DNA of 30,931 nucleotides, taken from positions 1-30,931 of IMG/VR virus record IMGVR_UViG_3300020183_000323, one strand, 5' to 3'. Origin of the DNA: a virus. The first letter of the stretch is position 1. Each line of letters starts with the position of its first letter. Below are positions 45 through 25,160 of this stretch, one piece after another. The position numbers were made by a program, and so were the translations under genes. Below the pieces are notes generated by a model. That model did no database searches, was not told where the DNA came from, and was given only the letters and a program-made list of their open reading frames with translations.

Positions 45-293
45 TCAATTATCCCAGATTGCCTCTTTCTGTTTCTGTTGCATTGCCGCAAATTTTTTGC
101 GCCATTCAACGATGTTGTCTGAATCGATTCGGACTGGAGCCTCACCCTCTTCGGGGATCATCCGACCTAGCATCGCTAGTTGGTTGCCACTCAAGAGGTT
201 TACATCTTCTACTTCAAATAATAGGTCACCGAGGGGTCCGAAAATCTGCATCTCCCCTTCAGAGTTCACAAAAATACGTTCCATATCATTCAC
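45..293 (-). CDS. 82-aa hypothetical acidic protein, last gene of leftward head operon
   Basis: I do not recognise a family. The protein is small, acidic and Met/Gln-rich near its C-terminus (KKFAAMQQKQKEAIWDN), with no signal peptide or membrane segment. The first codon is GTG at 293, but an ATG three codons in (position 284) sits a short distance after GGGTGA and may be the true start. Either start puts it right at the stop codon of the giant gene: the GTG start overlaps that gene by 8 bases and the ATG start follows the stop by one base. Such coupling suggests translational linkage and co-expression with the head genes. A small head or chaperone-like protein is possible from position, but nothing in the sequence proves it. 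Confidence 0.7.
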   Translation of the reverse strand: MNDMERIFVNSEGEMQIFGPLGDLLFEVEDVNLLSGNQLAMLGRMIPEEGEAPVRIDSDNIVEWRKKFAAMQQKQKEAIWDN

Positions 294-3200
294 CCATCAT
301 TGAATAAACCGTGGATTCGGCAAGTTTTAGGCGTTTTGCGATTTCGGATACCGAAAGCCCACTGGCCTTGAGCGCCGATATTCTTGCTTTAACGCTTGAC
401 TCACGCATTCTCCTGGTCAATCTAGTACCTGGGACATCTCTACTTTCCCCACTCATTGCTCCGGTCAGAGAGCCGCCGCGGCCTTTTGCGGTTTCGATTC
501 GTTTCAACTCTTCGTCGATCATGGATATGAAGTTGTTTTTGAAGTCGGGCTTACCCAGTTTCGGGTCGTTCTTTGGATGGTCGAAAATTGGAACGTGGCC
601 GCCCTGCTCTACCGATATTTTGTTGTATTTCAAATACGCCTCATATGGAGTTGTTTTGTCGTCAATTTTCAGATCGTCCGCCGTGATGTCTTTCCAGTCA
701 CCAGCTGAAATTTTCCTAGAAACCCACTTCTTTGTCATCGCAGTATTGAACGGCTCAACTTCGTCGAGGTCCATTGCTGGGTGATTGATGACCACATCGA
801 TGCCGTGTTCCTTCTTTATAGATTCGCGTTTTCGTGCGGCTGCAATCAAATTCGTAAAACTTGCCCATGGATTGACTCCGACCGCATTCATGAAACTGTC
901 GGGCATTTCAGCTCCACGCAAACCTCGCGCATCTGAAACTATGGATTCCACGTCCGATAGGTCAAAACCACCTAATGTCAGTGATTCCGCGTATCTGGCT
1001 TGTATGACAGATGATGCACTGGCAAGCGTGTCTTTTCTTCCTGTTTTTGCTTCAAACAAAATCGCCATCGGATCAAAGAATGTGGATGCTAGGCGACCGT
1101 TTTCCGAAAGTGTCGAAAGTCGTGCACTTGGTGCAATGACGTCGGCGCCGCTCGTACTTACGTCGCTGACCGAATCACCTTTCACCGTAAGGGTTCGTGT
1201 GGAAGTTTCCGGACGGAGAACAATCAAGTTTCTGCCGTACTGAGCGTCTGCCTTCGAGTTTTTTCTCCTGCTGCTACTGAACGCCGCCTGTCTTCCCATT
1301 TTCCCGGCGGCTGGAACACGGTGTTGAATTTCGATGTCGTCCCCATAAATGTTTTTTAGTTGGTTTTCGCGGACTTCACCGAATGTCTTTTGCAGCGCCA
1401 TTCCGGACGATGGTCTGATTGCTGTCGTTTTTTCGTCGGTAGCGCCGGCTGGAATGCTGAACAGCATAGATTCTGCCGAGCGTCTAATTTTTGGAACATC
1501 GAAGCCACTGTTGGCAAAACTGTTCCCGTCTTGCGTTTTTCTGCCTTGGTGTACGGTTTGGTATCTGCCAGTATCTAGTAGGCCGTTCACGTCGTTCATC
1601 AACACAGTCGTTCTGTTGTCAAACGGGCTTTCAAATTTTTCTATTGCATCGTCAATTGCGGCATTCCATTGTTCTGGCGTCATTTCTTTAACTTCTTTTA
1701 TGAAGTCATCTATTTGCGCTACGAGTTTTGTATCGCCTCTTCCACGAGCTATTTCTTGAGCAACCTGCAGCCGCATGCCGAAGCTGTTGTCTTCTTCGGG
1801 TGAGTACATTTCCCTAAATATGTCAAGGTCGGTTTTGGTTTTGTCGGTGGCCAATTTCCGTGCATACGCTTTGTAATCACCGGATAATTGTGTCTTTCCC
1901 TGTAAATCGCTTGCGATTCTTGCTGCTGTTTGTTTGCGTCTGTCATCGACCGCTTCACGAATTATGCGAGGCATAATTTCTCGTTCTTGTCGTTCAATGT
2001 CCACGCCAAGGTCTTTTGAGCGAGCAAGAATATCGGCGGTATTTTGACTGCTCATTGCGCCGGTAAGTCCAGAGACCGGCGGTTGATTGCGCCGGTAATT
2101 CAAAACTGATTCCGGGTTGACCTCGCGGCCCTCGTTGTGCATTTTTATCGCCCTTGCAACAAGGGCATTAGCGGCAAACTCAACGTTTTGGCGATCTTCC
2201 AAATTGTTCTTCGCCGAAAACCCGAACAACGGCTTGTTTTTACCGATCAACTGGAGTTCGTCATTAGGACCCAAACCGCTGGTAACAGTTGCATCATCGC
2301 CAATAATCAAATACCCCGCCCCTCGCAGATTCTGTTCCCACCGATTGAGCATCTCGCGATCCTTGACGTCTCTGAACCGGGTGTATCCCAGGCCCTGTTC
2401 ATTTGCCTCGCGTTCAGTAAGCGGCGTCGCAATATCCTTTGGTACGGCCTTGTGAGCGTTTCTTCCGTAGTACCCCTGCGTGCCCAGGCCTCTTGATGCG
2501 GGGTATGCACTCAAAAACCCCATGGTTGGACTTTCGTCAAGTCTGGCGAAAAGCCTTTCATAACTATCCACGACCCCTTGTTCCTCGGGAATGTATTTTT
2601 CAACGCTGTCGATGATTCTTTGGTAGCCGTCTTCGTTTGCTTTTATCCAGTCATGATTGAGGTCATATTCGACACCTTCCTTAAAAGACTGCCGATCGGA
2701 TCTGCCGTTGAGTCCGAATTTTTCGTTTAGGAGTTGCGCCTCGTATTGTGTTTTGGGGGTGATTTTTCTTTTTGGGTCTCGCATTGCTTCAACTATTCGC
2801 TGTCTGGATGCGAGTCTGTCAAGTGCGTCTTCACGTTGACGGCGTACACGGCTCAGTGTCATTTGATTTAGGGCCCCCGTATTTCCGGACGCGCCCGCAT
2901 TTTCCGCCCCTCCACCATCGGTCTTATCGGGGTCAAGTACGCCACCGTCCAAAGACGGTGCACCGACGTGGATTGCGGCACGCAATCCGTTGCCGACGGC
3001 AAAATCTTCGTCGGTCAGGTTTCGTCCTTCCTCAATCAGCGTTTTCAATTCGTCTTCCGGGATGTCTTCTAAACGAACTATCCCCTGCTCTTTTTGTGTT
3101 CTGGCCTGATCCGAAAGAAACTTTTGCAGTACGAGTTCTTTTCGGGATTGCTTAATTTTGTTCAGAATTTCGACTTCGATGTTTGTTTTCTCTTCTGCTT

Positions 3201-6200
3201 CAATTTCTGCCAGCTCAGCTTTGGTTAGGTTTCTTGGTTTACCGCCATCGAACACGTCCAGATTGCCGAGGTCAACATCATCCTTTATGCTCATGGTTAC
3301 GCCGAAATCGGCGCCCAACCAATCTCCTGTTTGCTTGTAGTGATCGTAGGCTTTTTGCAATTTTTCGACCCGAGCTTCGCTTTCGGCCACCCGCGATGTT
3401 TGTTTTTGGGCATTGTTTTCCGCGACCGCGGAGTAGTGCATTGCCCCAGTGAGACCGTCATAAGATTTTTTGGGCGACCGATCGGTGCGCTCAGGTGCGA
3501 GAGAAAGGTTTACTATTGCGTTTCCTGGGTGGTATTTTCCGTCTTTATCGTTCCATTCGAACGGATGTAGGCCGATTGAGGGTTCTTCGTCTGGAACGAT
3601 TTCGAACTCTTCAATTCGCCCGCCGGAAAGTTTGAACGCACGGTCAAAGGACTCCCCGCGGGCGCGTAGATTTTTGAAGGTTGATTTATTTACCAATGAA
3701 TCGTCGTATTTCAAGCCGACAAGTTTTCCGTCCGGCGAAAGCCCTACACCACGATCAAAACTCAGCTTGAGCGCCTGAAGGTCTTCTGTTGAAACAAATA
3801 CCGTATTATCAAAGGACGAAACCACCGCAGATTCTTCAATCGTCGATCCGGATGTGGGCTTAACTCTTTGCACACGGCCGTCAACATTGACGGAATACTG
3901 CGAGCCTTGAGATGTTTCGAATTGTGCGTATCGCTGTATGGGCTTTCTGTCGGAACGTGACATCGCCCCAGTAAGGCCGCCCGACTTCGCCTTTTCAATT
4001 TCTGCCCCCGTAGCAAACATCACCCTGGCTTCTCCGGTGTACGGACGAACACGTATCCATGACAAGTCTGGCATCTGCTCTAACTGTTCTTCTGTGACGT
4101 TCGTGTCAAAATCTATTGTGTTCGCAGGTATGTATTTTAAGTTGCGGGCGCGCGAGATTTTGTTGAAGCCGTAAAGCTCTTCAGGCGTGAGATCGGGTTT
4201 GCTCGCGGGGTCGGGAAACTCGATATTGTCCAAAAGTTCTTTTCGCAATTCGATGAGTTCGGCTTTTGCGTCTGCCGACATGCCGACAACATTGTCGCGA
4301 GACGGCAATCCCGCAATTAGATTTGCCATGGCGCCAGCGGCCTGTTTCTGACGAACCGTGCTAGGTCCAGGTGTATCAAAACCAAAATCTTTGTCCATAT
4401 TCAATAAAGCAAACCCCTCGGCAACTCTTTCTGTTCTCAGCGATTTTGCGTATTTTGATGTATCGGCAAGGATTCCCTTTTCGTCAAGAACCCCTGCGGC
4501 CTCGCCAAAAACCCCCTGATTTACGTCCCACCCCAACGCCTCGCTGAGTATTTCGCTCATGCGCGCAGTAATTCTGTTTACTCTTCTTTCCTGACCCTGC
4601 TTTGGTCGCGAGACACCGCCCGTCCTGTATGTATCCCCAGTAGTCATCCATTGCGCAGTGTGTCCAACATCCATAACCTGATAGTTCAAAGAGCTTCTCC
4701 CTGACGGGAGAAGGGTGTCGTGACCGGAAAAAGCAAATGCCCTAATCAGCGACCCCTCGTTCGCCGCTTCTCTTGGGTTGCCGTTGATCCCCAGTCCCCA
4801 ACCAACGAAGTGCGTGAAAAAACCTTTTTCACTATTGTTCATATCGTCAATCTTGTATGTAAGCGATTTCCCGGTGGCGAGCGCATACATTGTTCCGGCG
4901 GCCGAGTCACCTAGTTCTGGTCCGGCGGTTCTTATTTGGTCAACGACGGGCGGAGAGTTGATTCCGGTTTTTAGACCGTAACCCTCCAATTGTGAGACTA
5001 GGTCAAGGTTGTGTCCCCCCTCGTGAAAAACTGTTGAACTTAGCGTGAGGCGCGTAAAGCGTGTGAACGATCCAACGGTTGAACCGTACGGCCGTGAAAA
5101 GTCTGGACTTTCTACATCTTCTACGAGGTCGTCAGGTAGTCCAATTTTTTGGTTGGGCACCAACCTTCCGCTCACTATTGATAGACCCGCAGACCCGGAA
5201 CGGGAGTCGTTGGTGGAAAAAGACAGGATCATGCCCTTTAGTTGTGGAAATCTGTCTGTGAGTCTCTTCATGTTCGTAAGCGTGGTAAGAATCTGCGTCT
5301 GAGCTTGATTCTTTTTTTCCGATACAAAAGTTTCGACGTCCCCAGACGTCAATTGATCCAAACGTTTGACCAGTATCTCCCTTTCACGTTTCCTTCTTCT
5401 GAGTTTGTCTTGCATTAGTTTTTCGGTTTCATCAAGAGTCATTCCATGGAACGAAAGCCCATTTGCTTCGTCAAGTAAATCCGTGTTTTTGGGGTCGTTA
5501 CGAAGCTTGTCCTGAACAGCTCGTATTTTGGTCAATTTTTCTTGATATCGCTGAAGCTTCGATTCGGCTTCGGTCATTTTGCTTTCCAGATCTTGCATCC
5601 ATTCCCGAACATATTTATCTCTGTCCGGACCACTACGCAGATACGCGTACTTCTTATTTATTCCATCCATGAGTTGCGAACCACTGGCTCGCCTAATCAT
5701 GGCCGTATTGTCCACATACCCCGTTTGACTCATTGAATCAATAAGACCAACACCTGCTGCTTCGGCGAGTTTTTCGAGTACGCCAGGTTGCTCTATAAAA
5801 GTTTGTCCGTCTGGCAATCGACCCAACTCGTCCATTATGTTGTCGCCAAATCCGGCTGCCGCCACAAGATTGGCCGCATCCGTATCAAGCACGCGAATCG
5901 CCTTGTTCGTGTCAAGCTCAATAGTCATTGCGCCAGGGTTCGCGTCTTCTCGCCCGGGCCGATCGTACATTCGCTTTCCTCGTGTACTAATTGCTCCGGT
6001 AAGCGCAGAACCATCTGGGGTTCTTCCGGTGACCTTACGCGGACTAAGTGCTCCGGTGAGACTCGGTCCCATCGGACCAGAGATTCCCGAACCCGTGCTC
6101 GAACGTCGCGACCTCGATGGAAGAAGTCTGGAGAGACCTGAACCTCTCGGACTTGGACTTGGAACCGGCGTTCCGGTCGGAGTCACCGGCCCTCCGGTTA

Positions 6201-8193
6201 TGGTGCTTACCCCAAATTCGTTATTTCGTTCATGCCAAACATCTGGCATCACTGTGCCAGTAAATTTGGTGCTTGTTGGTGGGTGATTGAAAATTCTATT
6301 CATTGCCGCATATACGTTGTCGGTGATCTCAGTTTCTGTTTCCGGGGTTGGAAACAGGCTCGGGTTGGTTGCCTGAAACGCGGCGTGCTCCCTGGCGAAA
6401 CTTTGTACAGCTTGAGGACCAAAATGTCTTATCGCCGCGTACGCTTCCGCTCGAGTTTCAATCAGGTTTGACTGGCCGTATCGTGCGCCGATCATGCGCT
6501 GCAGTAGTTTGAAATCTTCGTCGGTGCCCCCAACGTCATCGGTCATTGTGCTGTAAAGCTCCCGGTAAAGCTCCTCGACAGCTTCTTTCATGTCTTTTGT
6601 CGTGCGCCTTACACGCTGTCCGGTCGGGAGTGTTTCGTACCGATTGCCGGATTGGAAACTTTCGATTCGTGCGATCATTGCCTGAATTCGCGCAAGACGC
6701 GGGTCCCCTAATGGGTTAGTCATGTTTCTAAGGTCAATTTGCCATTCGCCGTTTTTACCCTTCGTAAGCGCGTCCGGCGAAAAACCCAGGTTTTCCATTG
6801 CCTGCCCGAAGTGGTTGATGTGCCCAAACTCGTGAGTCCCCGTATACAAACCCTGGGAACGCATATTGAATTGCGATCCGTGCGCAGTATGGTTTTTGTC
6901 GTTGCCGTCACCTTTGGCCAGGTAGTAGGCGGCAACCGGGTTGAATCGCACCGACAAGTGAAATCCGCTTTGGCTGATCGGTGCATTTGGGTCGTATACC
7001 GTTTGACCTTTTTTGTTTACGCTTGAAGCTGTTCCGCGAAGATCCATTTCCCAGCCGTTGCCGGGATCGTTCGTTCCAACTACCAGTTTGGTAATCCACT
7101 TGGCTTTTTCTGGATTTTGTTTGAGCTCCATGAAAAAACTCTGAAAATAAGAGTCGAGGTAATCTTCCATTTGGACTCTTTGGAGTGTTGTCAGCGGAGC
7201 GTTTTTCAGCGCATTGTCCCAAAATTGTGCAGCCTCCGCCGGGTCGACATTGGGCATCAGCTCCTGCACTGCGGCCAAAAAATACGCCCTGCCTGCAGCG
7301 TTTTGTTTGAAATGCCGTACTGGCTGCCCACTGGGAAGCGTGAATAGTCCGTTCTTAAAATCTTGTGAGGTGGAAAAAGCTTGGTTTATCATCGAGCGTC
7401 CACGCTCAAGATTTTCTCTTGCGCCGACTAAAGCCTCGCCGCCATATCCCGTTGGGTAATCTCTGGCGCCCGGGGACATCGCCCCGATGAGTCCGCTGGT
7501 CGCAGCTCGACGAGCCAATCGTGCACCGGACGAAATAGCGCCTTTCGGTTTCATGGGCACAGGAATGAAGCAGTTTGAACCTGTTATGTCCGTGAATTGG
7601 TTGGCGTTCGGCGTACCGGGCGGGCAACGGAGTTTGTTCTTGTCGTCAACCCACAGTCCCCGTGCTTTGGCAACCATGGACAGAAGTGAGTAAATACTGT
7701 CTTTTATTTTCGGGCCAAGAGACTTTTGACCGAACCCGTCAAGGAGCGCTTGGTCCATATTGTTTATCGGACCAAAGCGTGGTCTTTTCTTTTTGTCGGG
7801 TTTCCGATTCAGCAACTTGCCTTCGCCGATGTCGTCGCAAAGATTGAAATGAAACCCAGGCGGCACGAGAGGGAGTGGATCGCCCGGCGCCCAATTCTCC
7901 AGCCACTGCGTGTACGGCTTCATGCTCGAGTTGCTAACCGTCGCAGCTTCGGCGTTTCGTTTCTTGGTTTTGTCGTCGAGCTGTTTGAAGAACATTTCGC
8001 CGAACGGTTTCAGCGGCTTTACCGTTCTGCTCAGTCGGTCGCCCATTTTGTCAACAGGCTTGTTCGACTTGGTTCGTGTCTCGGGGTTGCGCTTGGGAAC
8101 GTGCGTGTACGAAATGTGGCGGCCGATTGACGGGCAACACTCAAATGGTTCTACGTTTTCCATACGGCTATCTATACCGACCTCTATCCTCAA
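286..8193 (-). CDS. Giant 2635-aa polyprotein-like head-operon protein with LTGAMS spacers, two HExxH modules and a C-terminal HTH
   Basis: One uninterrupted frame occupies a quarter of the window. The motif [LI][TI]GA[MLI]S recurs at residues ending 240, 717, 736, 1412, 1586 (His instead of Ser), 2048 and 2581. Looser forms lie near 708 (ISGPM), 756 (NPGAM) and 1775 (NTGAL). Between these spacers lie unlike modules. Residues 1-235 form a basic N-terminal region with a Cys pair at C190/C208. Residues 240-700 hold HEFGH at 454-458 with a downstream RAEAY (E583), a metallopeptidase-like pattern. Residues 660-760 are a Pro/Ser/Arg-rich linker. Residues 757-1407 contain a coiled coil and then HEGGH at 1057-1061 with VAEGF (E1259). 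Several unrecognised modules follow. Residues 2601-2635 are a helix-turn-helix (GLSVSEIAKRLKLAESTVY). The frame begins at TTG 8193; ATG 8163 gives 2625 aa, and neither has a well-spaced Shine-Dalgarno. From position it is a head-operon product; cleavage into several proteins is my inference. Confidence 0.85.
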   Translation of the reverse strand: MRIEVGIDSRMENVEPFECCPSIGRHISYTHVPKRNPETRTKSNKPVDKMGDRLSRTVKPLKPFGEMFFKQLDDKTKKRNAEAATVSNSSMKPYTQWLENWAPGDPLPLVPPGFHFNLCDDIGEGKLLNRKPDKKKRPRFGPINNMDQALLDGFGQKSLGPKIKDSIYSLLSMVAKARGLWVDDKNKLRCPPGTPNANQFTDITGSNCFIPVPMKPKGAISSGARLARRAATSGLIGAMSPGARDYPTGYGGEALVGARENLERGRSMINQAFSTSQDFKNGLFTLPSGQPVRHFKQNAAGRAYFLAAVQELMPNVDPAEAAQFWDNALKNAPLTTLQRVQMEDYLDSYFQSFFMELKQNPEKAKWITKLVVGTNDPGNGWEMDLRGTASSVNKKGQTVYDPNAPISQSGFHLSVRFNPVAAYYLAKGDGNDKNHTAHGSQFNMRSQGLYTGTHEFGHINHFGQAMENLGFSPDALTKGKNGEWQIDLRNMTNPLGDPRLARIQAMIARIESFQSGNRYETLPTGQRVRRTTKDMKEAVEELYRELYSTMTDDVGGTDEDFKLLQRMIGARYGQSNLIETRAEAYAAIRHFGPQAVQSFAREHAAFQATNPSLFPTPETETEITDNVYAAMNRIFNHPPTSTKFTGTVMPDVWHERNNEFGVSTITGGPVTPTGTPVPSPSPRGSGLSRLLPSRSRRSSTGSGISGPMGPSLTGALSPRKVTGRTPDGSALTGAISTRGKRMYDRPGREDANPGAMTIELDTNKAIRVLDTDAANLVAAAGFGDNIMDELGRLPDGQTFIEQPGVLEKLAEAAGVGLIDSMSQTGYVDNTAMIRRASGSQLMDGINKKYAYLRSGPDRDKYVREWMQDLESKMTEAESKLQRYQEKLTKIRAVQDKLRNDPKNTDLLDEANGLSFHGMTLDETEKLMQDKLRRRKREREILVKRLDQLTSGDVETFVSEKKNQAQTQILTTLTNMKRLTDRFPQLKGMILSFSTNDSRSGSAGLSIVSGRLVPNQKIGLPDDLVEDVESPDFSRPYGSTVGSFTRFTRLTLSSTVFHEGGHNLDLVSQLEGYGLKTGINSPPVVDQIRTAGPELGDSAAGTMYALATGKSLTYKIDDMNNSEKGFFTHFVGWGLGINGNPREAANEGSLIRAFAFSGHDTLLPSGRSSLNYQVMDVGHTAQWMTTGDTYRTGGVSRPKQGQERRVNRITARMSEILSEALGWDVNQGVFGEAAGVLDEKGILADTSKYAKSLRTERVAEGFALLNMDKDFGFDTPGPSTVRQKQAAGAMANLIAGLPSRDNVVGMSADAKAELIELRKELLDNIEFPDPASKPDLTPEELYGFNKISRARNLKYIPANTIDFDTNVTEEQLEQMPDLSWIRVRPYTGEARVMFATGAEIEKAKSGGLTGAMSRSDRKPIQRYAQFETSQGSQYSVNVDGRVQRVKPTSGSTIEESAVVSSFDNTVFVSTEDLQALKLSFDRGVGLSPDGKLVGLKYDDSLVNKSTFKNLRARGESFDRAFKLSGGRIEEFEIVPDEEPSIGLHPFEWNDKDGKYHPGNAIVNLSLAPERTDRSPKKSYDGLTGAMHYSAVAENNAQKQTSRVAESEARVEKLQKAYDHYKQTGDWLGADFGVTMSIKDDVDLGNLDVFDGGKPRNLTKAELAEIEAEEKTNIEVEILNKIKQSRKELVLQKFLSDQARTQKEQGIVRLEDIPEDELKTLIEEGRNLTDEDFAVGNGLRAAIHVGAPSLDGGVLDPDKTDGGGAENAGASGNTGALNQMTLSRVRRQREDALDRLASRQRIVEAMRDPKRKITPKTQYEAQLLNEKFGLNGRSDRQSFKEGVEYDLNHDWIKANEDGYQRIIDSVEKYIPEEQGVVDSYERLFARLDESPTMGFLSAYPASRGLGTQGYYGRNAHKAVPKDIATPLTEREANEQGLGYTRFRDVKDREMLNRWEQNLRGAGYLIIGDDATVTSGLGPNDELQLIGKNKPLFGFSAKNNLEDRQNVEFAANALVARAIKMHNEGREVNPESVLNYRRNQPPVSGLTGAMSSQNTADILARSKDLGVDIERQEREIMPRIIREAVDDRRKQTAARIASDLQGKTQLSGDYKAYARKLATDKTKTDLDIFREMYSPEEDNSFGMRLQVAQEIARGRGDTKLVAQIDDFIKEVKEMTPEQWNAAIDDAIEKFESPFDNRTTVLMNDVNGLLDTGRYQTVHQGRKTQDGNSFANSGFDVPKIRRSAESMLFSIPAGATDEKTTAIRPSSGMALQKTFGEVRENQLKNIYGDDIEIQHRVPAAGKMGRQAAFSSSRRKNSKADAQYGRNLIVLRPETSTRTLTVKGDSVSDVSTSGADVIAPSARLSTLSENGRLASTFFDPMAILFEAKTGRKDTLASASSVIQARYAESLTLGGFDLSDVESIVSDARGLRGAEMPDSFMNAVGVNPWASFTNLIAAARKRESIKKEHGIDVVINHPAMDLDEVEPFNTAMTKKWVSRKISAGDWKDITADDLKIDDKTTPYEAYLKYNKISVEQGGHVPIFDHPKNDPKLGKPDFKNNFISMIDEELKRIETAKGRGGSLTGAMSGESRDVPGTRLTRRMRESSVKARISALKASGLSVSEIAKRLKLAESTVYSMMGE
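451..7491 (-). repeat. Dispersed LTGAMS peptide-motif repeats within the giant gene
   Basis: The Met-type codon closing each core lies at 7477-7479 (LIGAMS), 6046-6048 (LTGALS), 5989-5991 (LTGAIS), 3961-3963 (LTGAMS), 3439-3441 (LTGAMH), 2053-2055 (LTGAMS) and 454-456 (LTGAMS). The looser forms end at 6070-6072 (ISGPM), 5926-5928 (NPGAM) and about 2869-2871 (NTGAL). Most copies follow a Gly/Ser and sit in Gly/Ser/Arg/Pro-rich, probably disordered linkers. Codons vary between copies (for example GGA or GGC for Gly, GCA or GCC for Ala). Conservation is therefore at the peptide level, not a DNA repeat. Confidence 0.85.
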
Positions 8194-8254: not shown

Positions 8255-9802
8255 TTAGAAATCTTGTGGCTTGGTCGCGTCGATTTCCTCGGAGAGAAGC
8301 TCAAACTCCATCAACGACGAAAGGAACTTGCCTTCCTCGGAACCGGCTACCACCGCACCATCAGATTCGGACTTTTCACTACCACCCCAGTTTGCTGGAA
8401 TGAGTTCTGACAGCCCGAGAGCCTTCGCCCTCTTCGTGATATGCGCTTTTGCGGCGCTCTTATCCTTGGCTCGACCGAAGGCCTGTATCGCATTCTTTAG
8501 GTCAGATTCGTCCTTGATCGGATACGACCCGTCGGGGAGTGCTGATCCCTCTTTGGCCATTTCCGCTCTTGTTTCATCCGAATATGCCCGCTTTAGGGCA
8601 ATCTCTGCAGCCTCTGCTTCGATTTCTTGCGCCTCTTCTGAGGTGTACTCGTCGTATCCAAGCACATTGCCCTCAAGGCTGACGAATACATCGTAGGACT
8701 TCCCGTCGATTCCATCAATTTCAACGGCGTATGCGTCGAAGCCGTCGAAAATATCTGGCTCAACCTTCATGACTTCGCCCTGAACGCTCTTTACGGCAAT
8801 GTCTGCAGCATCATGGAATCCGATGACAACTCGCGACTGATTTGCGGTCTTGAATTCGATATCGCTCATTTCGAGTTTGTGCCAACCGAGAATTTCTCCG
8901 CTCGAGCCGTCGACAAAAACCTCGACAGGTGTTCCGTCTTTTCTTTCTACGTCGAGAACAAAGGAGTCGGCCGCTTCGCTGTATCCGGAGTCGAGAACTT
9001 TCCCGCTGATTGCGTCTTCGACCATGCCTTCGACTTCAAGAAGTGACGGCATGCCGTTTTCCGCAACGCAACCACCAGGGCATGATTCGCATACTTGGTG
9101 GCCAGCCGGATAAACCTTGCGATCCATACCGCAGATAAAGGGTTCGTCGTCAAAGTCGTCAGACTTGTAACCGAGGGTTGCCAGACGTCTTGAGCGCATC
9201 TTCTTGCGCATTGACATAACGTCCTCGTCCTCTTCCTCTACATCGTCCATCATCTTGTATCCGGTGGGAGCACAACCGCCCTTGCACTCGGCACAGGGCG
9301 CGTTGACCATAGTTTCGCTGGCCTTGCACATGAAGCCACCGGTCGCCATCTTTTTCCCAGGCTTCTTCTTGCCTGCAACGGCCATGTACTGCGGGTCGGC
9401 ACCAGCCGCCATCGCGGATTCCATTTTCTCAATGTCCGACTCTTCGACATCTTCGTCGTCTTCTTCGATTGCTTCCATTTCCTCGTCAGAGGGCATTTCG
9501 GAGTCATCAAGCTCCTCGTCTTCGTCGTCTGACATCATCGACGATGCAACCATTGGCCGACGTCTTTGCATCGCCATTGCAGCCTTCTCGTCGTCGGCGA
9601 AAGTTGTTTCGTCGATTGTCATGTCGTCATTTTCCATGTCAATGTCCTCATCTTCTTTGGCTTGAACTGCCAACGCTCCGCATTTCCCACAGACTTTAGC
9701 GCCTGGGGTGTAGCCACAGTCGTTAGTCGCCATACCTTTAGCACACGAGATAATTTCCCCGTCCGATGAAAGTTTTGCGATTAGTTGTTTCCTGTCAGCC
9801 AT
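8255..9802 (-). CDS. 515-aa acidic Cys-knuckle and PepSY-like head-operon protein
   Basis: The start ATG at 9802 has an AGAGG ribosome site about 9 bases upstream and overlaps the 155-aa gene by 8 bases. A longer frame reaching 9859 lacks such support. Three Cys clusters of similar form appear: C20/C29/C38/C41, C159/C170/C173/C177 and C224/C238/C241/C245. Each ends in CxxC and looks like a metal-binding knuckle. Residues 48-128 and 185-195 are extremely Asp/Glu-rich. Residues about 262-310 and 335-386 look like two PepSY-type repeats (VEVFVDGSSGEILGW, then YDVFVSLEGNVLGY). Residues 422-470 form a basic helical segment (LKNAIQAFGRAKDK, then ALGLSELIP) that I recall from other phage head proteins. 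By position and acidity it could be a scaffold or internal head protein. It does not look like an HK97-fold major capsid protein. Confidence 0.85.
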   Translation of the reverse strand: MADRKQLIAKLSSDGEIISCAKGMATNDCGYTPGAKVCGKCGALAVQAKEDEDIDMENDDMTIDETTFADDEKAAMAMQRRRPMVASSMMSDDEDEELDDSEMPSDEEMEAIEEDDEDVEESDIEKMESAMAAGADPQYMAVAGKKKPGKKMATGGFMCKASETMVNAPCAECKGGCAPTGYKMMDDVEEEDEDVMSMRKKMRSRRLATLGYKSDDFDDEPFICGMDRKVYPAGHQVCESCPGGCVAENGMPSLLEVEGMVEDAISGKVLDSGYSEAADSFVLDVERKDGTPVEVFVDGSSGEILGWHKLEMSDIEFKTANQSRVVIGFHDAADIAVKSVQGEVMKVEPDIFDGFDAYAVEIDGIDGKSYDVFVSLEGNVLGYDEYTSEEAQEIEAEAAEIALKRAYSDETRAEMAKEGSALPDGSYPIKDESDLKNAIQAFGRAKDKSAAKAHITKRAKALGLSELIPANWGGSEKSESDGAVVAGSEEGKFLSSLMEFELLSEEIDATKPQDF

Positions 9803-10262
9803 CGATGTTGTACCTCTTAAACTGCATAGCGCCGGAGAGGCAACCTTTGGGGTTGCCACACCCAGCGCACGGATTCGCGCGCTTTTCTCCAGAAACCATG
9901 CAGTTATATTTGTTGGAAACGGCCGCTAAGCCGCCGTTTTTAGGATAACCCATTACTGGCTTGTTCTGTTGCACCATCCGTCGTCCGGATGTCAAATTGA
10001 TGCGAGCACCAGTTGTCTTGACAAGGAGATCTGCAATTTCATTTATTTCTGCGTCGGTGAGGTGGTCGATTTGCGATATGCAAATGCCGTCGGCCGTTGT
10101 TTTTACATTGAATCCGTCTTCTGAAGCCAGAAGGCCAACAAGGGAATTGACAAGATTTATTTGACTTTTATCGATGAGTAGCTCAATTGACCCCGCATCG
10201 ATGCTTTTTGTCTGGATTCGGCTCGAGATTTCCGAGCGCAGTTTCTGCGGTGCGTTATTCAT
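9795..10262 (-). CDS. 155-aa Cys-knuckle protein ending in an LSGAM motif
   Basis: The start codon overlaps the stop of the protease gene by one base (TAATG), a strong sign of translational coupling. Residues 1-100 are a mixed alpha/beta region that I do not recognise. The C-terminus has Cys residues at 121, 132, 135 and 141, spaced like the knuckles of the next gene's product. It is followed at once by LSGAM (142-146), a close variant of the LTGAM spacer of the giant protein. Only nine residues remain after the motif, so cleavage there would remove a short tail (QFKRYNIDG). No membrane segment is visible. It is probably a minor head or internal protein, but the function is unknown. Confidence 0.8.
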   Translation of the reverse strand: MNNAPQKLRSEISSRIQTKSIDAGSIELLIDKSQINLVNSLVGLLASEDGFNVKTTADGICISQIDHLTDAEINEIADLLVKTTGARINLTSGRRMVQQNKPVMGYPKNGGLAAVSNKYNCMVSGEKRANPCAGCGNPKGCLSGAMQFKRYNIDG

Positions 10263-12751
10263 TATCTTTTTCTGAAAGCGTCGAGTTCTGGCATTCTTCG
10301 TCTTGGAATATCTTGTCTCATGCCCCTGGCACGGTTGGTTAAGGGACTCACCTCGCGGAATCGGGTGTAGGAGCCGTCAGCGATAACTTCTGACATCAGT
10401 TCGGCCGCCTGATTGAAAAGATCCGCCGCCGCTTCGTCCTTGTATAAATCCCTCATTGTTTGGGCTTGCGCGCGCATGGCACTCACATTGTTTTCGAGGC
10501 TGTACTCATATCCATCAACTGCGTTGCTCTTTGGGCTGAATTCTCCACGTAAGAGATCTTCTGTCTGCCAGAATATGGCTGCACTTTCGTCGTCGAGACC
10601 ACGACCATTTGGCGTGTTTGGTCCGTCCCTTTCAAGAAGCGCTTCACGGAATTTTTCGGCAAGAGCTTCTCGTTTGCGGAGCTGGTTGATATATCGCTGC
10701 TCCATTTGCCTGACTCTCTTGCGGTTCATCTTGAGACGTGCGGCCACCTGGTCAAGCGTTTCTCCGCCCATTCGTGATTCAAAAATTTCTCTCGGTGATC
10801 TGCCGGGCTTTACTGCGCCCATTGCACCCGTGATACCCCTACCGGCTGGCACGGGCACCCTGGGTCTGACGGGTCTTGTTGGTGCGGGAATTGGCGGCTT
10901 AACCGGAGGCTTGACTGGTGCTGGTGTTCGTTCCGGTGCGGGCTCTGGAATTTTTTCTGGCACGGGTTGTTCCTCTGGATTCGGAACTCTCGGCATCATT
11001 CTTGCAGGCTTTGGTTTCTTCCTTTTCGGAACATAGGGTCGCTCAAAAATGGTGCCGTCTTGCACAAGAAGGTCTCCGTCTGCGTTTCTTGCATCGGGAT
11101 TAAATCTCACTCTTGTTGCGCCACGTAGTGTTGCGCCAAGTTTCTTTTCTTCGAAGTCGTCAATCAACTCAATCAAATTGTCATACGAATTATCATCGAG
11201 CCGGTCAATGTTCTTGATGGCCAACCCAACATCCAAGAGCTCTACATCCAGCCCCTTCTCGTCGGCCTCATTTATCGCACCCATCAGACCAATGTCATCT
11301 GCGCTATGAACAAAAAGGTGTTTGCCCGGGTTGTTGTCCTTGAAGGCATTCCAGGACGGCATTGGCGTGCCACAGGAATCGCAGCAACCACCATCATCAT
11401 CTTTCCCTGAGGATGCCTCCCACCCGAAAGCATGGGCCGGACGGTTTGTGTCGGTTGGTACGTACACGACCTGTGGCTTTACTTCCTCGGAAGTTCCGAA
11501 CATGTATTCACTTCCTTGTGAGTGGTATGGAATTCGGAGTGTTGTGTTTACACCATCACGTCGCATTTCGGCGACGATCATGTTTTGGTCGGCGTACATA
11601 ATTCTGCAAGGTCCACCAAAGTGCCTTGCCACAGCCTCGGTAAGCGCCAAACGCGCCACGTCTTGTGGGCGTGCCAGCACAACGTTTGCTGCGTAGACGT
11701 CACCGATGTGATTTTTTGTTTCAATTTCCGCTTCGTCCGACTTCTTCTTGGTATGTTCGTAGCGGTCTAGGAGTCTTCTTCCCTTTGCGGCAAGTTTTGC
11801 CGCATCTGAGCGATCTTGTGGAACAGGTTCGCCCCAGGCAGCCGCTGAGAGCGCCAAACGCGTCGGTCTTCCCTTTGCGTCTTTCATTGGTCCCCTGGGA
11901 TTCGTGAAGAAGCGCGTAAGAAAAGAACCTTTTCTTCTCATCTTCTGTGGGGTGTCTGCGGCACCCTTGACGCCCGGTTTTAGATTTGCGCCCTCTTTGC
12001 GCTTGAAGTGCGCTCGACCGGCGGCCGTCAATCCGCCCTTTGGATCACGCAAGACTGGTTTGTCTGCTGCTTTTTCCTCTGGGCAACAATCGTCTTCAAG
12101 TGATTTGCCTTTGATTGGCACACAGTTCGGCACCATCTTGCCGCCCTTGCCCTTCTTCATTCCAACCTGCTTGTAGCCGGGCCAACACGGGCCATTTTCG
12201 GCTTTGACTTCGGTGTTTTGTTTGTCGGACTTGATTGAGATCGTTCCGGTGAGTTGGTTTGCACCGTGAAGAACCGGAGAAACTTCGTACAGTTCCACTT
12301 CTTTCAAGAGATTGGCGCTTTGTGCCGGGTCAAAAACCGCGTCTAAGGTTTTGTAGCCGATCGACCACTCTTGCTCGGCGCCAAAAAAGACGACGTTTGC
12401 AAAAGCCTCACGACCGCGTTCTGATTTTAGATTGAACTGAACCCTGGCAAACAAACCACCTACGCCACCCGAACGCATTTTGGACGGGAGCCGCGGGTCG
12501 TTGGGTGGTACTTCGTAGATTTCCAACACCTTGCCGATGGGTTCATTCCAATTGTGGCCCCATACAACACGCGGCTTGCGGCGTTTTAGGCTGCCATTGA
12601 AGGCACCCGGCAAGACCACGTCACCGACGGAGTCCTTATTGCCGATTGCGGCGACAAAACACTCAACGATTCCACGTGCCTCGTCTACGGCGACCTGGCC
12701 GTCGAGGGCCTTGTATTCGGCTGTCGAGGGTTGAATGCTCGTATTCTTCAA
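10262..12751 (-). CDS. 829-aa prohead protease fused to a long multi-domain extension with an HTH
   Basis: Residues 1-172 match the HK97-type prohead serine protease (S78/U35-like). His66 in VVWGHNW and Ser130 in EWSIGY are the likely catalytic residues, and the domain ends with YEVSPVLHGAN. Family members, usually about 200 aa, cleave scaffold and capsid proteins during maturation. This one continues with a C189/C210 segment (MVPNC), a conserved-looking basic block at 231-331 (GGLTAAGR, AAWGEPVP; it resembles what I recall as DUF6321), and a DSCG cluster. An Asp-rich loop NPDARNADGD precedes QDGT, and a Pro-rich tether (about 575-640) leads to ITGAM (640-644) and a sigma-region-4-like HTH (about 664-693, LKMNRKRVRQMEQRY). 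LTGTIS at 167-172 resembles the spacer motif. The start is TTG 12751, supported by CGGAGT 8 bases upstream. The extension may be cut off and packaged. Confidence 0.92.
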   Translation of the reverse strand: MKNTSIQPSTAEYKALDGQVAVDEARGIVECFVAAIGNKDSVGDVVLPGAFNGSLKRRKPRVVWGHNWNEPIGKVLEIYEVPPNDPRLPSKMRSGGVGGLFARVQFNLKSERGREAFANVVFFGAEQEWSIGYKTLDAVFDPAQSANLLKEVELYEVSPVLHGANQLTGTISIKSDKQNTEVKAENGPCWPGYKQVGMKKGKGGKMVPNCVPIKGKSLEDDCCPEEKAADKPVLRDPKGGLTAAGRAHFKRKEGANLKPGVKGAADTPQKMRRKGSFLTRFFTNPRGPMKDAKGRPTRLALSAAAWGEPVPQDRSDAAKLAAKGRRLLDRYEHTKKKSDEAEIETKNHIGDVYAANVVLARPQDVARLALTEAVARHFGGPCRIMYADQNMIVAEMRRDGVNTTLRIPYHSQGSEYMFGTSEEVKPQVVYVPTDTNRPAHAFGWEASSGKDDDGGCCDSCGTPMPSWNAFKDNNPGKHLFVHSADDIGLMGAINEADEKGLDVELLDVGLAIKNIDRLDDNSYDNLIELIDDFEEKKLGATLRGATRVRFNPDARNADGDLLVQDGTIFERPYVPKRKKPKPARMMPRVPNPEEQPVPEKIPEPAPERTPAPVKPPVKPPIPAPTRPVRPRVPVPAGRGITGAMGAVKPGRSPREIFESRMGGETLDQVAARLKMNRKRVRQMEQRYINQLRKREALAEKFREALLERDGPNTPNGRGLDDESAAIFWQTEDLLRGEFSPKSNAVDGYEYSLENNVSAMRAQAQTMRDLYKDEAAADLFNQAAELMSEVIADGSYTRFREVSPLTNRARGMRQDIPRRRMPELDAFRKR

Positions 12752-15316: not shown

Positions 15317-15389
15317 ACAACGAGACTACCACTCATCGGCAATCACCTAAATTACTATGGATGGTGAGCCCCTATCAGGACGAATCCGA
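15317..15389. promoter_or_regulatory. Divergent intergenic region between head and terminase operons
   Basis: These 73 bases separate the leftward membrane-protein/portal genes from the rightward terminase gene, so promoters for both directions could lie here or inside the flanking gene ends. I see no convincing sigma-70 -35/-10 pair. The only clear signal is AGGA at 15377-15380, the ribosome site for the terminase start at 15390. Confidence 0.3.
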
Positions 15390-16694
15390 ATGACCAACTG
15401 GAATGAAGTATTGAAATATCTTGAGCCGAAGAAGGCTTTGTTTTGCCCTGAAGAACCCTCTTTGACCCAAAAAGTTTTTTTGCGCAGTTATGCCCTGGAA
15501 GCTCTTTTTGGAGGAGCTGCCGGCGGTGGTAAGAGTTCGGCCCTTCTTATGGCGGCGCTGCAATACGTGGACGTTCCGGGATATTCGGCGATTCTTTTTA
15601 GAAGGACTTTTGCGGACCTGTCGCTTCCTGGTGCCCTGATGGACAGATTCAGGCAATGGGTAGCGATGCATGATGACGTTCATTGGAACAACAACACCTA
15701 TGTGGCGACATTTCCCTCCGGCGCAAGAATTTCTTTCGGATACCTTAATAATGTCAACGACTATTTGAGATACAAGGGTTCAGAATTCCAGTTCATTGGC
15801 ATGGACGAGGTGACCGAAATACGGGAAAACGACTATCGATACCTGTTTTCGCGTCTTCGCCGACCAGCCAGCGGCCCGTTATCGAAGGTTCCGCTAAGGA
15901 TGAGGGCGGCATCCAACCCGGCCCCAAACTGGGTCAGACAACGATTCATCGTCGAGGGCAAGAATCAGAACAGAATTTTTGTGCCATCCAAGCTCACCGA
16001 CAACCCAGGCATCGACCCCGACTCCTACCGTCAGGCGTTGGCAGCGCTGGACCCGATCGAGCGCCGCCGCCTAGAAATGGGCGATTGGTGGGCGACGACA
16101 CTCGGTACGTATTTTGATCGAACATGCTTCATCATCGTCGACCCGAATGAGGTGCCCCAAGTCCATTCGACAAGCAGGGCAGTTCGATTCTGGGATTTGG
16201 CAGCGAGCGAACCGACGTCAAATAATCCGGACCCAGACTGGACGGTGGGCACTTTGGTCCTTTTGGACCAGGGCGTTTCGTACATTTTGGATGTAAAACG
16301 CGCAAGACTCAAAAACGAGAAAGTGGAAAACCTCATTCTTCAGACGGCCATCGAAGACGGCCATGTTGTATCAGTTCGAATGGAGCAAGAACCGGGTTCA
16401 TCCGGTAAAGCCCTGATCGACAACTACGCGCGCTATGTGCTACCTGGCTATGACTTTTCTGGTATTAGGTCAACTGGAGACAAAGAAACAAGAGCTAGGC
16501 CGTTTGCTGCAGCAGTAGCTAATGGAAATGTTCGCCTTGTTCGTTCTGCATGGCTAACAGATTGGCTTGATGAATTTAGCTCCTTTCCTGAGGCGTGTTC
16601 GCACGACGACCAGGTTGACTCGGCAGTTGGCGCGTTTACATTCCTCACCGGCCTGGGGTTGCCTCAAAGGAGAAAAGCCACTATCCTCCTCTGA
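15390..16694 (+). CDS. Terminase large subunit
   Basis: The packaging motor ATPase and nuclease that pumps DNA through the portal and cuts it. Numbered from the ATG at 15390 (434 aa), Walker A is GGAAGGGKSS at 41-50 and Walker B is FIGMDE at 135-140. The C-terminal RNase H-like nuclease shows D269 (RFWDLAASE), the E332/E334 region (RMEQEPGSSGK) and D406/D407/D410 (HDDQVDS). The frame is open from ATG 15357, but that start has no ribosome site, while 15390 has AGGA 9 bases upstream, so I prefer the shorter form. The length is normal for a Terminase_6-type protein. No small terminase subunit is recognisable next to it. It heads the rightward gene set, divergent from its functional partner, the portal. 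Confidence 0.96.
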   Translation: MTNWNEVLKYLEPKKALFCPEEPSLTQKVFLRSYALEALFGGAAGGGKSSALLMAALQYVDVPGYSAILFRRTFADLSLPGALMDRFRQWVAMHDDVHWNNNTYVATFPSGARISFGYLNNVNDYLRYKGSEFQFIGMDEVTEIRENDYRYLFSRLRRPASGPLSKVPLRMRAASNPAPNWVRQRFIVEGKNQNRIFVPSKLTDNPGIDPDSYRQALAALDPIERRRLEMGDWWATTLGTYFDRTCFIIVDPNEVPQVHSTSRAVRFWDLAASEPTSNNPDPDWTVGTLVLLDQGVSYILDVKRARLKNEKVENLILQTAIEDGHVVSVRMEQEPGSSGKALIDNYARYVLPGYDFSGIRSTGDKETRARPFAAAVANGNVRLVRSAWLTDWLDEFSSFPEACSHDDQVDSAVGAFTFLTGLGLPQRRKATILL

Positions 16695-16714
16695 CAGAAA
16701 GTAGTAGCCTGTCA
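16692..16714 (+). other. Inverted repeat overlapping the terminase stop codon
   Basis: TGACAG and CTGTCA form a 6-bp stem with an 11-base loop. The left arm contains the terminase stop codon, and the next gene's AGAGGAG ribosome site follows. No T-run is present, so terminator function is not supported. It could be a minor mRNA structure or chance. Confidence 0.25.
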
Positions 16715-16732
16715 TACACAAAGAGGAGCAAC

Positions 16733-17278
16733 ATGAACAATACCCCGCTCACACCAGAGTGTGAATCGATCATTGCCGACATATCGAAGGCTTTAGACCT
16801 TTTGCGTACGGCCGCCCAAAACGCCGCAAACCTAATCAAGGCGGTGGAATCATCATCAATTGATGACTCATGCGAACTTGCCGCGGCAATGAACAGGGCA
16901 AAAGCAGAAACAAAAGAGCTGTTTGAACTCCTGTCCGCCGACGTGATTTCCAAAATGGGTTCACTACCGGAACACATTCTGGCTGACGGCACCATAGTTG
17001 AGCGTCGTGCGGGTTCTGCCAGAAAAAAGTGGGACCACCTTACGCTCGCAAAATCAGTTACGGAAAAATTGCACCAAATGGCAATCGACATGGATACGGG
17101 CGAGATGACGATGAGCAATCAGGACATTGCGATTCGCCTTCTCGACTATGTTGCCCCCAGCTATTGGCGGGTAAAGAAACTGGCCGACCTTGGGATAAAC
17201 GCAGACATGTACTGCGAGGTCACCGAGGGCGGGGTAAACCTAATCATTCGCAAGGGAGGAACCAGCGATGACGAATAA
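16733..17278 (+). CDS. 181-aa hypothetical protein preceding the Rad52-like gene
   Basis: I do not recognise a family. The protein starts with a long helical, Ala/Leu-rich region (residues about 10-75). A conserved-looking patch follows around 84-105 (DGTIVERRAGSARKKWDH), and the C-terminal half contains VAPSYWRVKKL. There is no signal peptide, membrane segment or Cys cluster. A strong AGAGGAG site precedes the ATG by 5 bases. Its end overlaps the Rad52-like gene by 11 bases, so the two are probably translationally coupled. A recombination-associated or DNA-binding role is suggested by this coupling and the basic patch, not by homology. Confidence 0.85.
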   Translation: MNNTPLTPECESIIADISKALDLLRTAAQNAANLIKAVESSSIDDSCELAAAMNRAKAETKELFELLSADVISKMGSLPEHILADGTIVERRAGSARKKWDHLTLAKSVTEKLHQMAIDMDTGEMTMSNQDIAIRLLDYVAPSYWRVKKLADLGINADMYCEVTEGGVNLIIRKGGTSDDE

Positions 17279-17942
17279 AATAGACAAATACCAACAACTT
17301 TCCGAGCCGTTTGCTCCAGAAATGGAGCGGACAATCACCAAGGGCGGTACGTCGCTCGTTTACATTCCGGTGAGCGAAGTCATAAACCGGCTCAACAAAG
17401 TGCTGGGCGTCGACAAGTGGACATTTGTTGTCCTCAAGTGCGACCGCGACCCAATCGACACCGATTTCGTCATTGCCCATGTCCAGATTCGCTGGTACTA
17501 CAGCGACGGCATCGGATACGTCGAACGTGACGGGATCGGCGGCCAGCGCATCAAGCGAAACAAGGCAGGTCAAATTGTCGACCTCGGCGATGAATTCAAG
17601 GGCGCAATATCGGATGCCCTGAAGAAGGCTGCGCAAACATTGGGGGTTGGTTTGTATTTGGCGCGCAGTGAAGACGCAATCGAGATCGAAGCAGTCCTGG
17701 ATGCGCAGTCGGCTCCCGCCCCAAAAGAGCCAGCCCGAGCTGAGACATCACCAAAATGGGCTGCTTTTCTCAGCGTGAGCAAGAAACTCAGCGCCGAGCA
17801 AAAGGAAGAGCTGAAGCGTCGTTGGGCAGAGTTCAGCGACGGTGCGGCTACCCCGACGGCCGCAACCGCGACCGAAGAAGAGATTGAGTTTCTCGCCGCC
17901 GAGGCGCTCGACATTCAACTAGGTAGCAAGGCTGAAGAATAG
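17268..17942 (+). CDS. Rad52/Rad22-family single-strand annealing protein
   Basis: Phage annealases of this family coat single-stranded DNA and pair complementary strands during recombination-dependent replication and repair. The family signature is clear: a VYIPVSEVINRLNKVLG helix near residues 31-47, KWTFVV at 50-55, the beta strands FVIAHVQIRWYY at 67-78, a GIGG turn at 89-92, and DLGDEFKGAISDALKKAA (105-122) followed by LGVGLYL (125-131). The C-terminal about 75 residues are low-complexity Ala/Glu/Thr, then a helical tail, as is usual for family members of about 200 aa. The ATG at 17268 has GGGAGG about 8 bases upstream. It sits directly before a PD-(D/E)XK nuclease gene, the classic annealase-plus-exonuclease pairing of phage recombination systems. 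Confidence 0.93.
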   Translation: MTNKIDKYQQLSEPFAPEMERTITKGGTSLVYIPVSEVINRLNKVLGVDKWTFVVLKCDRDPIDTDFVIAHVQIRWYYSDGIGYVERDGIGGQRIKRNKAGQIVDLGDEFKGAISDALKKAAQTLGVGLYLARSEDAIEIEAVLDAQSAPAPKEPARAETSPKWAAFLSVSKKLSAEQKEELKRRWAEFSDGAATPTAATATEEEIEFLAAEALDIQLGSKAEE

Positions 17943-17944
17943 CC

Positions 17945-18724
17945 TTGTCCCAACTGCCTGAATATGTTTCCGCATCGTCGATCGGCACGTTTCAACAGTG
18001 CCCGCTGAAGTACAAACTCTCACGGATTGACCAAATAAAAGAACCGCCGACGAGGGAAACCCTGCTGGGGAATTTTGTACATGAGGTGATGGAAGGCTTC
18101 TACGCCATCGGGTCCGACCGTGAGCGCAATGTGGCGACAGCTCAGCAAATTTATTCCGAGGTGTGGGAGTCCGGCGACTGGGCGGCCAAGGTTTCCCCAT
18201 ATCTCAGAGAAATGTCCATGAAGTTATTCAGGTGGAACGCCTGGTGGTGTATCGAGAACATTTTCAAGATTGAAAACCCAGACACAATCGACGTCAAAGG
18301 AATTGAGTTGGAACTTGACGTAACAATCGATGGTGTCCGTATCAAGGGTTTCATCGACAGGCTGGCAACGATCAACGGCAGGGATACGATTTCCGATTAC
18401 AAAACGGGCAAAACGCCAAACGCAAAATATATGTCTGACAAGCACTTTCAGCTTTTGCTTTACTTTGTCTGCCTGTCGCAAGGATTGAGCCTGAATGAAC
18501 CGATGCTTGAACTGCTGTATCTCAAAGACGCTCAGGTTAGGACAGTCGAACCAACACCCGAGCTGTGTGCCGGCGTTGTGGAAACGGTGGTGACGGTCAA
18601 TTCCAAAATACAAAACGCTTTCGAGGCCGAACAGTGGGAGGCCGTTCCGTCAAAACTGTGCGACTGGTGTTTTTTCAAATATAATGGTTGTACTCATTAC
18701 ACAAAAAACATGAGGAGACGTTAG
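17945..18724 (+). CDS. Cas4/RecB-like PD-(D/E)XK nuclease with Fe-S-type cysteines
   Basis: Motifs in order are SSIGTFQQCPLKYKL (11-25, with C19), His46 in GNFVHEVMEGFY, Asp138 in GFIDRL, Asp151-x-Lys153 in ISDYKTGK, Gln169 in HFQLLLY, and C239, C242 and C248 near the C-terminus. The single early Cys plus three late Cys is the 4Fe-4S arrangement of Cas4 and AddB-type nucleases, which resect DNA ends. No CRISPR genes are near, so an exonuclease partner for the Rad52-like annealase is the best reading. The start is TTG at 17945, two bases after the annealase stop, with GAAGA upstream. A later start would remove part of the conserved N-terminal motif. Confidence 0.92.
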   Translation: MSQLPEYVSASSIGTFQQCPLKYKLSRIDQIKEPPTRETLLGNFVHEVMEGFYAIGSDRERNVATAQQIYSEVWESGDWAAKVSPYLREMSMKLFRWNAWWCIENIFKIENPDTIDVKGIELELDVTIDGVRIKGFIDRLATINGRDTISDYKTGKTPNAKYMSDKHFQLLLYFVCLSQGLSLNEPMLELLYLKDAQVRTVEPTPELCAGVVETVVTVNSKIQNAFEAEQWEAVPSKLCDWCFFKYNGCTHYTKNMRRR

Positions 18725-18726
18725 TA

Positions 18727-19263
18727 ATGATCATGAATGATGAAACATTTGCCAGACTCGTAGCTGACAATGTAAAAAATAGGACCACGGCCCCCCAGAA
18801 CAAGTACCTTGAACTCCCAGAAAATAACGCAAAATGGCAACGGGCGTTGAACGCATTGATTAGAAACTTGGATTCGCAGATTGCCGAAATCACATCCGAT
18901 GCGCAGGCCGACTCGGAGAGATACTCAAATGTTGGTGACGCCGGCACAGAATTATTGGCTCAGGCCGTCGCAAACTACGACGCCAGAAAACAAAAAATTG
19001 AGCGCTTTCGTTTTTATGTTGTAAAAAAACTTGCCGATGTGGTGCTGACGGACCAAGCAAACAAGACACACCTCGGTTCAGGGGAATCACTCGTCCATCG
19101 TGCCATCCGTAAACACATGGATATGAGTCGTATATATGGGATTGAAAACACCCCCCTGGATCGCGCGCTTTATGACTCCCTCAACGGAATTTGGTCGTTT
19201 GATGACATCAAGGAGGACGACCTTCTTGAATACAGCTTCAATGACCATGCGCCGGCGCTCTAA
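18727..19263 (+). CDS. 178-aa hypothetical helical protein
   Basis: I do not recognise a family. The sequence is predominantly helical and charged, with a segment at 75-105 (LAQAVANYDARKQKIERFRFYVVKKLAD) that could form a coiled coil. The ATG at 18727 lies about 11 bases after a strong GAGGAG inside the end of the nuclease gene. A longer frame from 18688 would discard that signal. The final 23 bases overlap the following HNH gene. Its place within the recombination cassette suggests an accessory role in DNA metabolism, but there is no motif to support one. Confidence 0.85.
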   Translation: MIMNDETFARLVADNVKNRTTAPQNKYLELPENNAKWQRALNALIRNLDSQIAEITSDAQADSERYSNVGDAGTELLAQAVANYDARKQKIERFRFYVVKKLADVVLTDQANKTHLGSGESLVHRAIRKHMDMSRIYGIENTPLDRALYDSLNGIWSFDDIKEDDLLEYSFNDHAPAL

Positions 19264-19549: not shown

Positions 19550-19565
19550 ATGTTAGATTTCATAA

Positions 19566-20971: not shown

Positions 20972-21026
20972 ATCCCGCGACGAGGGGGCAAGTGTTAGAA
21001 TTTGGGGTAGCCAGAAAGGCTTGTTT

Positions 21027-21254: not shown

Positions 21255-21273
21255 TCCACAATTGGAGAAATAA

Positions 21274-22586: not shown

Positions 22587-22589
22587 GTC

Positions 22590-23189: not shown

Positions 23190-23196
23190 TCGGTTC

Positions 23197-23640: not shown

Positions 23641-23689
23641 TCGCAGTAGCTCATATTCGTAGCTGATCTCCTTATTGACGGAGGAAAAA

Positions 23690-25141: not shown

Positions 25142-25160
25142 TCCATACGGAGGATAGATA

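Follow-up and report, generated by a model that had tools for sequence, protein, structure and literature searches.

Why would a phage maintain, among its head genes, a single open reading frame (ORF) for a protein of 2635 amino acids (aa) in which one short peptide recurs between otherwise unrelated modules? The question is raised by the IMG/VR record IMGVR_UViG_3300020183_000323, a sequence of 30,931 bases that is classed as linear and is probably a fragment; it was analyzed at full length and is hereafter called the window. We found that the peptide recurs in the giant head-interval proteins of related uncultured phages, with each phage using a spelling of its own. With all candidate enzymes taken together, it probably serves as proteolytic punctuation of polyproteins.

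A peptide spelled differently in each phage

The giant ORF carries exactly the seven copies of [LI][TI]GA[MLI][SH] that the original prediction, made from the sequence of this DNA, had counted (Table 1). Among 20,000 composition shuffles of the giant, 19,931 were without any copy and one had two, while 3,000 dipeptide-Markov sequences never had more than one; since the shuffles never exceeded two, the seven copies in the window are not a product of chance. The looser copies that had also been claimed are a mixed set: some are present, such as ISGPMG at residue 704 and NTGALN at about residue 1770 in a low-confidence loop, but others such as AAGTMY are probably chance occurrences. A further copy that had escaped the earlier list, ITGAMG, lies in the protease ORF of the same operon, between the protease body and a helix-turn-helix (HTH) domain. 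The LSGAM that ends the 155-aa protein of the operon was considered as a copy and rejected, its homologs reading LS[NSG]SMQYKE in a Cys-rich tail.

The giant itself matched almost nothing directly, with no match to the whole protein in IMG/VR and a single weak one in a cultured phage (E 3e-3); hence, we used the portal protein as the query. This recovered 175 IMG/VR loci, 80 of them being retained, and no relative in bacterial genomes; the nearest cultured phages by portal are Gordonia, Brevibacterium and Streptomyces phages that are less than 60% identical. In the larger contigs among the relatives we read the interval from the portal to the capsid gene, which lies 17-65 kb downstream, and in motif-bearing phages this interval contains several giants of up to 6494 aa. 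Across the giants of a single genome with a complete head interval the peptide is repeated about 15-35 times.

An unsupervised search of the relatives for over-represented patterns revealed a peptide with the core Gly/Ala-x-Met, then Ser/Ala/Gly/Thr, and with one spelling per phage: ISGRM, I[ST]GKM, DSGAM, PSGSM, GPVGxM, xEAGM or LTGAM. The observed copies exceed the expected numbers for DSGxM (27 vs 0.27), PxGSM (19 vs 0.12), ISGxM (16 vs 0.10), EAGM (28 vs 0.39) and GPxGxM (10 vs 0.07). When copies are collected with the generic pattern, cross-protein pairs within a genome have the same residue at M-4 in 57% of cases, compared with 13% for pairs from different genomes (highest permuted value 24%), and at M-1 in 45% compared with 15%. 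The phage-specific prefix is followed by Met in 112 of 119 cases and the next residue is mostly S/A/G/T, at which point conservation mostly stops.

Copies at the module boundaries of large proteins

The distribution of the copies is strongly uneven: their density per 10,000 aa is 8-16 in the portal-capsid interval and mostly below 1 in the six-frame ORFs outside it (2.3 in G007), and proteins of at least 750 aa account for 194 copies over 131,528 aa (14.8 per 10,000) as against 5 over 39,091 aa (1.3) for the smaller ones. Of 210 copies, 109 have a homology break between giants no more than 25 aa away, whereas randomly chosen positions gave 62 ± 6.5 (maximum 82 in 1000), and the copies avoid known domains. 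For instance, the NUDIX, J-domain or Clp_N, and Zeta-toxin domains of the relatives' giants are each found between motif copies, with two copies directly preceding J-domains (ITGRM followed by SNPRQWARSRDLYEILGV). Likewise, the small beta-rich module of the window giant lies between GLTGAMS and GLTGAMH, while its homologs are framed by ISGRMG copies in G010 and by GVSGKM and ISGKM in G005. Homologous modules recur in differing orders and in different proteins, each polypeptide holding several unrelated domains. In two AlphaFold models of the window giant (residues 1400-2060 and 2035-2635) all four distinct copies covered fall within or border on stretches whose predicted local distance difference test score (pLDDT) is below 50. 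Besides module boundaries, the copies occupy linkers that are predicted to be flexible.

Some of the relatives' giants are of note for their architectures. The 6494-aa protein (G026, contig of L063; L144 1-19486) has ten DSGxM-type copies together with NUDIX and Zeta-toxin domains. The last giant before the capsid gene (L098 7403-17794; L143; L144) also combines NUDIX and Zeta-toxin domains, with the motif of its own phage between the modules, and in two phages it has an additional J-domain or Clp_N domain. In G017, G018, G024, G025 and G026 the S78 protease is itself fused to multi-module proteins of 2758-5467 aa.

Among the modules of the window giant, the first HExxH (aa 454) is conserved in position in the homologous giants of all motif-bearing relatives; the zincin-like modules have no Pfam match. 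The module at residues 2049-2575 is predicted from its structural model to have an ADP-ribosyltransferase (ART) fold, matching SopF (Foldseek E 6.7e-4; VIA-align Z 12.3, rmsd 4.2, 238 residues aligned) and, by VIA-align, OspC3/CopC (Z 7-8) and DarT (Z 5-6), a common fold being no proof of activity. No usable or reliable structural match was obtained for residues 1413-2042 with Foldseek and VIA-align against the PDB. The C-terminal module shows weak matches to the Pfam families HTH_23 and HTH_7 and a resolvase/Fis HTH in the structural model. In kind, the modules of the phage family comprise protease-like, ADP-ribosyltransferase-like, chaperone, NUDIX and kinase domains, and several modules look like host-takeover enzymes.

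Processing site, docking peptide or DNA signal

We take the peptide to be a candidate processing site because a fixed Met, a Gly/Ala two positions earlier, a variable residue between them and a small residue thereafter have the form of a prohead-protease site. The sites of T4 gp21 are [LI]-x-E, and the original prediction had placed Gly in the role of their Glu; the copies instead point to the Met, followed by a small residue, as invariant, so that Gly/Ala would be P3, Met P1 and Ser/Ala/Gly/Thr P1', with the cut after Met. The comparison with relatives strongly supports the earlier polyprotein idea, in that the copies bracket independent modules, share the spelling of their own phage across proteins and are limited to large head-interval proteins, while its site details had to be corrected.

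Among enzymes of this kind, the gp245 protease of phage SPN3US has a measured specificity for cuts behind A-x-E, preferably with Ser in the following position, and its substrates include numerous head and ejection proteins (PMC10052503). The putative sites share with those of gp245 and gp21 the two fixed residues round a variable one, the small residue after the cut and a protease encoded among the head genes; the multiplicity of head and ejection substrates in SPN3US, with several cuts in one of them (gp53), is a further likeness. However, P1 is Glu in those systems and would be Met here; the known cuts mostly remove N-terminal propeptides, whereas here, judging from sequence, unrelated domains would be separated from each other; and here the spelling varies between close relatives.

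We propose that the giant ORF is one of several head-operon polyproteins in which effector, enzyme and DNA-binding modules would be joined by a punctuation peptide of the form [phage-specific]-[S/T/V or E]-[G/A]-x-Met-[S/A/G/T]. The S78 prohead protease, which is encoded upstream and itself bears the peptide, would cut the chains during head assembly, and the separate proteins would enter the head together with the DNA and so reach the next host. As a whole, this succession of punctuation, S78 cutting, packaging and delivery is in our view the best explanation and a moderately probable one. For S78 in particular as the enzyme that reads the peptide, we put the chances at slightly below even.

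Several observations weigh against this proposal. The phage-specific motif was not found in the major capsid proteins of 11 relatives, although these are the normal substrate of a prohead protease. Between phages of differing spelling the S78 domains keep 68-96% identity and so give no sign of a changed protease specificity. Gene fusion or fission junctions are not enriched at the copies (7 of 28 vs 6.3 expected), a negative result for the idea that the motif replaces a gene boundary. There is also a conserved family of 1450-2459 aa in the interval (L120-L122, L107-L110) that is large yet almost copy-free, and whose members possibly act undivided, in a structural or enzymatic role. Finally, the position in linkers and the enrichment at domain boundaries would equally suit a docking motif. 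The capsid protein without the motif and the junctions away from the copies leave doubt about the enzyme and some room for a docking motif.

As a separate observation, a Met that directly follows the delta-domain helix (GRNGANM or ..TM) is invariant in all capsid proteins of the group (L088-L096, L097-L128), including those of cultured Gordonia and Brevibacterium phages; the capsid protein of Gilgamesh lacks this stretch. This Met could be a capsid cleavage point with the same P1.

The modules have clearly been shuffled between giants, as would be expected if the copies were short common stretches of DNA that promote recombination. However, the copies differ in their codons: in the relatives codon identity is slightly above background (e.g. 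0.40 vs 0.35 and 0.46 vs 0.44), with serine encoded by both the TCN and AGY families, and in the window it is 0.395 vs 0.239 expected (n=76), the copies there being too few for a firm test. Agreement near background and the use of both serine families point to selection on the peptide and not to mere copying of DNA. Such recombination linkers are thus largely refuted and highly improbable. Codons also bear on the alternative that each Met with its small next residue is an internal start codon, from which shorter proteins would arise by re-initiation. The pair does resemble a real N-terminus, but the residues before the Met are conserved across synonymous codons, and the codons that replace that of Met in the window are ATT and CTT and not GTG or TTG; on this evidence we reject internal starts, which we rate no higher than the recombination linkers.

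A peptide-level alternative of greater weight, albeit an unlikely one, is that the peptide, placed in disordered linkers, is a ligand for a partner that evolves with it, be it the scaffold, the capsid interior or the portal, and that the giant is thereby drawn uncut into the procapsid. Linear motifs occupy linkers and co-vary with their partners, the 7-42 residues separating some copies that share one linker could give avidity, and the restriction to the head interval fits as well. Yet single-module head proteins, which would equally need a packaging signal, are almost copy-free, and the strict Met with a small next residue, beyond which conservation mostly ends, is more like a P-side cleavage profile. 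Less likely again is processing by the resident zincin-like HExxH modules, a mechanism already suggested for polyvalent proteins and for DdrB of phage P1, which would take place either inside the procapsid or once the chains have been injected. All 14 of the motif-bearing genomes that were examined have modules of this type, while two relatives without the motif have none, and autoprocessing by such domains is proposed in the polyvalent-protein study (PMC5512222). This link is weakened by L077, which has HExxH modules and in which no motif was found; moreover, many copies reside in zincin-free proteins, so that the cutting would have to proceed in trans. We keep these two alternatives beside proteolytic punctuation read by the prohead protease, which we continue to prefer.

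The head operon and its counterparts in other phages

The head operon, on the minus strand, has the order portal-MuF, S78 protease, 155-aa protein, 534-aa protein and giant (Table 1), and the giant is the last of its large genes to be complete, in agreement with the earlier statement that it lies downstream of a prohead protease. It is taken to be a real gene because it aligns by BLAST with an ortholog of 2771 aa (G001) at 53% identity over residues 1-1585 and 51% over 2048-2595. The protease ORF matches Pfam S78 (9.3e-12), DUF6321 (7.2e-30), PHROG 80 (4.6e-31) and TIGR01543 (1.3e-13, yet below the cut-off of that model). Together, portal and S78 mark an HK97-type head module; a PF05065 capsid gene follows downstream in 10 relatives, and the window stops short of it.

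Table 1. Coordinates of the giant protein, its motif copies and modules, and the other genes of the head operon
Feature	Residues	Window position	Strand	Remarks
Giant multi-module protein, 2635 aa	1-2635	286-8193	minus	ORF translation; TTG start, in-frame Met is residue 11
N-terminal module	1-234	7492-8193	minus	Kept at start of homologous giants (BLAST)
Motif copy 1, LIGAMS	235-240	7474-7491	minus	
Module with zincin-like HEFGH (aa 454-458; 6820-6834)	241-711	6061-7473	minus	
Motif copy 2, LTGALS	712-717	6043-6060	minus	
Motif copy 3, LTGAIS	731-736	5986-6003	minus	
Module with second HExxH, HEGGH (aa 1057-1061; 5011-5025)	737-1406	3976-5985	minus	
Motif copy 4, LTGAMS	1407-1412	3958-3975	minus	Inside pLDDT<50 stretch
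Small beta-rich domain	1413-1580	3454-3957	minus	
Motif copy 5, LTGAMH	1581-1586	3436-3453	minus	In or adjoining pLDDT<50 stretch (1569-1585)
Alpha/beta module	1587-2042	2068-3435	minus	In many relatives at differing positions; tandem pair in G007
Motif copy 6, LTGAMS	2043-2048	2050-2067	minus	pLDDT<50 stretch in model 1, edge in model 2
Predicted ADP-ribosyltransferase-fold module	2049-2575	469-2049	minus	Foldseek, VIA-align
Motif copy 7, LTGAMS	2576-2581	451-468	minus	pLDDT<50 stretch (2573-2594)
C-terminal HTH module	2582-2635	289-450	minus	
534-aa protein		8255-9859	minus	Motif-free
155-aa protein		9795-10262	minus	Cys-rich tail in homologs
S78 (HK97-type) prohead protease + DUF6321 + sigma70-r4-like HTH, 829 aa		10262-12751	minus	
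Motif copy ITGAMG in protease ORF	640-645	10817-10834	minus	Between protease body and HTH
Portal-MuF fusion, 761 aa		12850-15135	minus	Query for finding relatives

The 534-aa protein has a PepSY-like stretch and a C-terminal domain of about 70 aa, which is sometimes doubled in relatives and is common to the C-terminus of the protease-containing protein of phage DalanDe. The terminase and tail genes (15357-30931) are encoded by the plus strand and so diverge from the portal-protease-giant operon, which is an unusual arrangement.

The closest conceptual precedent is provided by the polyvalent proteins, very large phage proteins that combine many domains, among them ART and HTH modules and, as a common hub, a zincin-like metallopeptidase; their comparison with RNA-virus polyproteins dates from 2017, so that both the proteins and the comparison were already known (Iyer et al., 2017; PMC5512222). 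The window giant resembles them in its several unrelated domains, including a predicted ART fold and an HTH, and may also do so in its putative zincin-like HExxH modules, its portal-terminase phage context and its presumed role as capsid cargo; however, the accessible text mentions no repeated phage-specific inter-module peptide, which here is common to several giants per genome. No Pfam polyvalent-associated (LPD-type) family matched the window giant at E<=1, though sequence models may miss distant members. DarA and DdrB of phage P1 are likewise large head-internal defence proteins processed around encapsidation, and a multi-copy spacer is not described for them in the accessible portions of the sources (PMC5512222, PMC12810830).

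In the cultured Bendigovirus phages GMA6, Gray and DalanDe of Gordonia the portal, the S78 protease and the major capsid protein are all related, but in the interval an ART toxin (annotated ADP-ribosyltransferase), an RNA ligase and an HTH protein each have a gene of their own and do not form giant polyproteins. The motif repeat was found in none of GMA6, Gray, DalanDe, Cantare and Gilgamesh; the mention in the original prediction of comparable spacers in long actinophage head proteins is thus not supported by these phages, the motif being a feature of the uncultured relatives.

In the open-licence literature searched, with most subscription journals outside it, we found no earlier description of a genome-specific punctuation peptide common to several giants. 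We tentatively suggest, at somewhat less than even likelihood, that these phages, as a widespread group of tailed phages, express their head-internal effectors as several giant polyproteins that would be cut in the procapsid by the prohead protease into dozens of packaged proteins, a counterpart of RNA-virus polyproteins with a code that diverges between close relatives. The separation of domains in large phage effector proteins has so far been mostly guesswork; if the proposal is true, the peptide would be a direct readout of module boundaries in giant phage proteins and offers a route to annotating otherwise unrecognisable modules. It would also render the exact N-termini of the packaged proteins predictable for mass spectrometry, provide a ready test of prohead-protease specificity and explain why the 17-65 kb between portal and capsid gene are given over to a few enormous genes.

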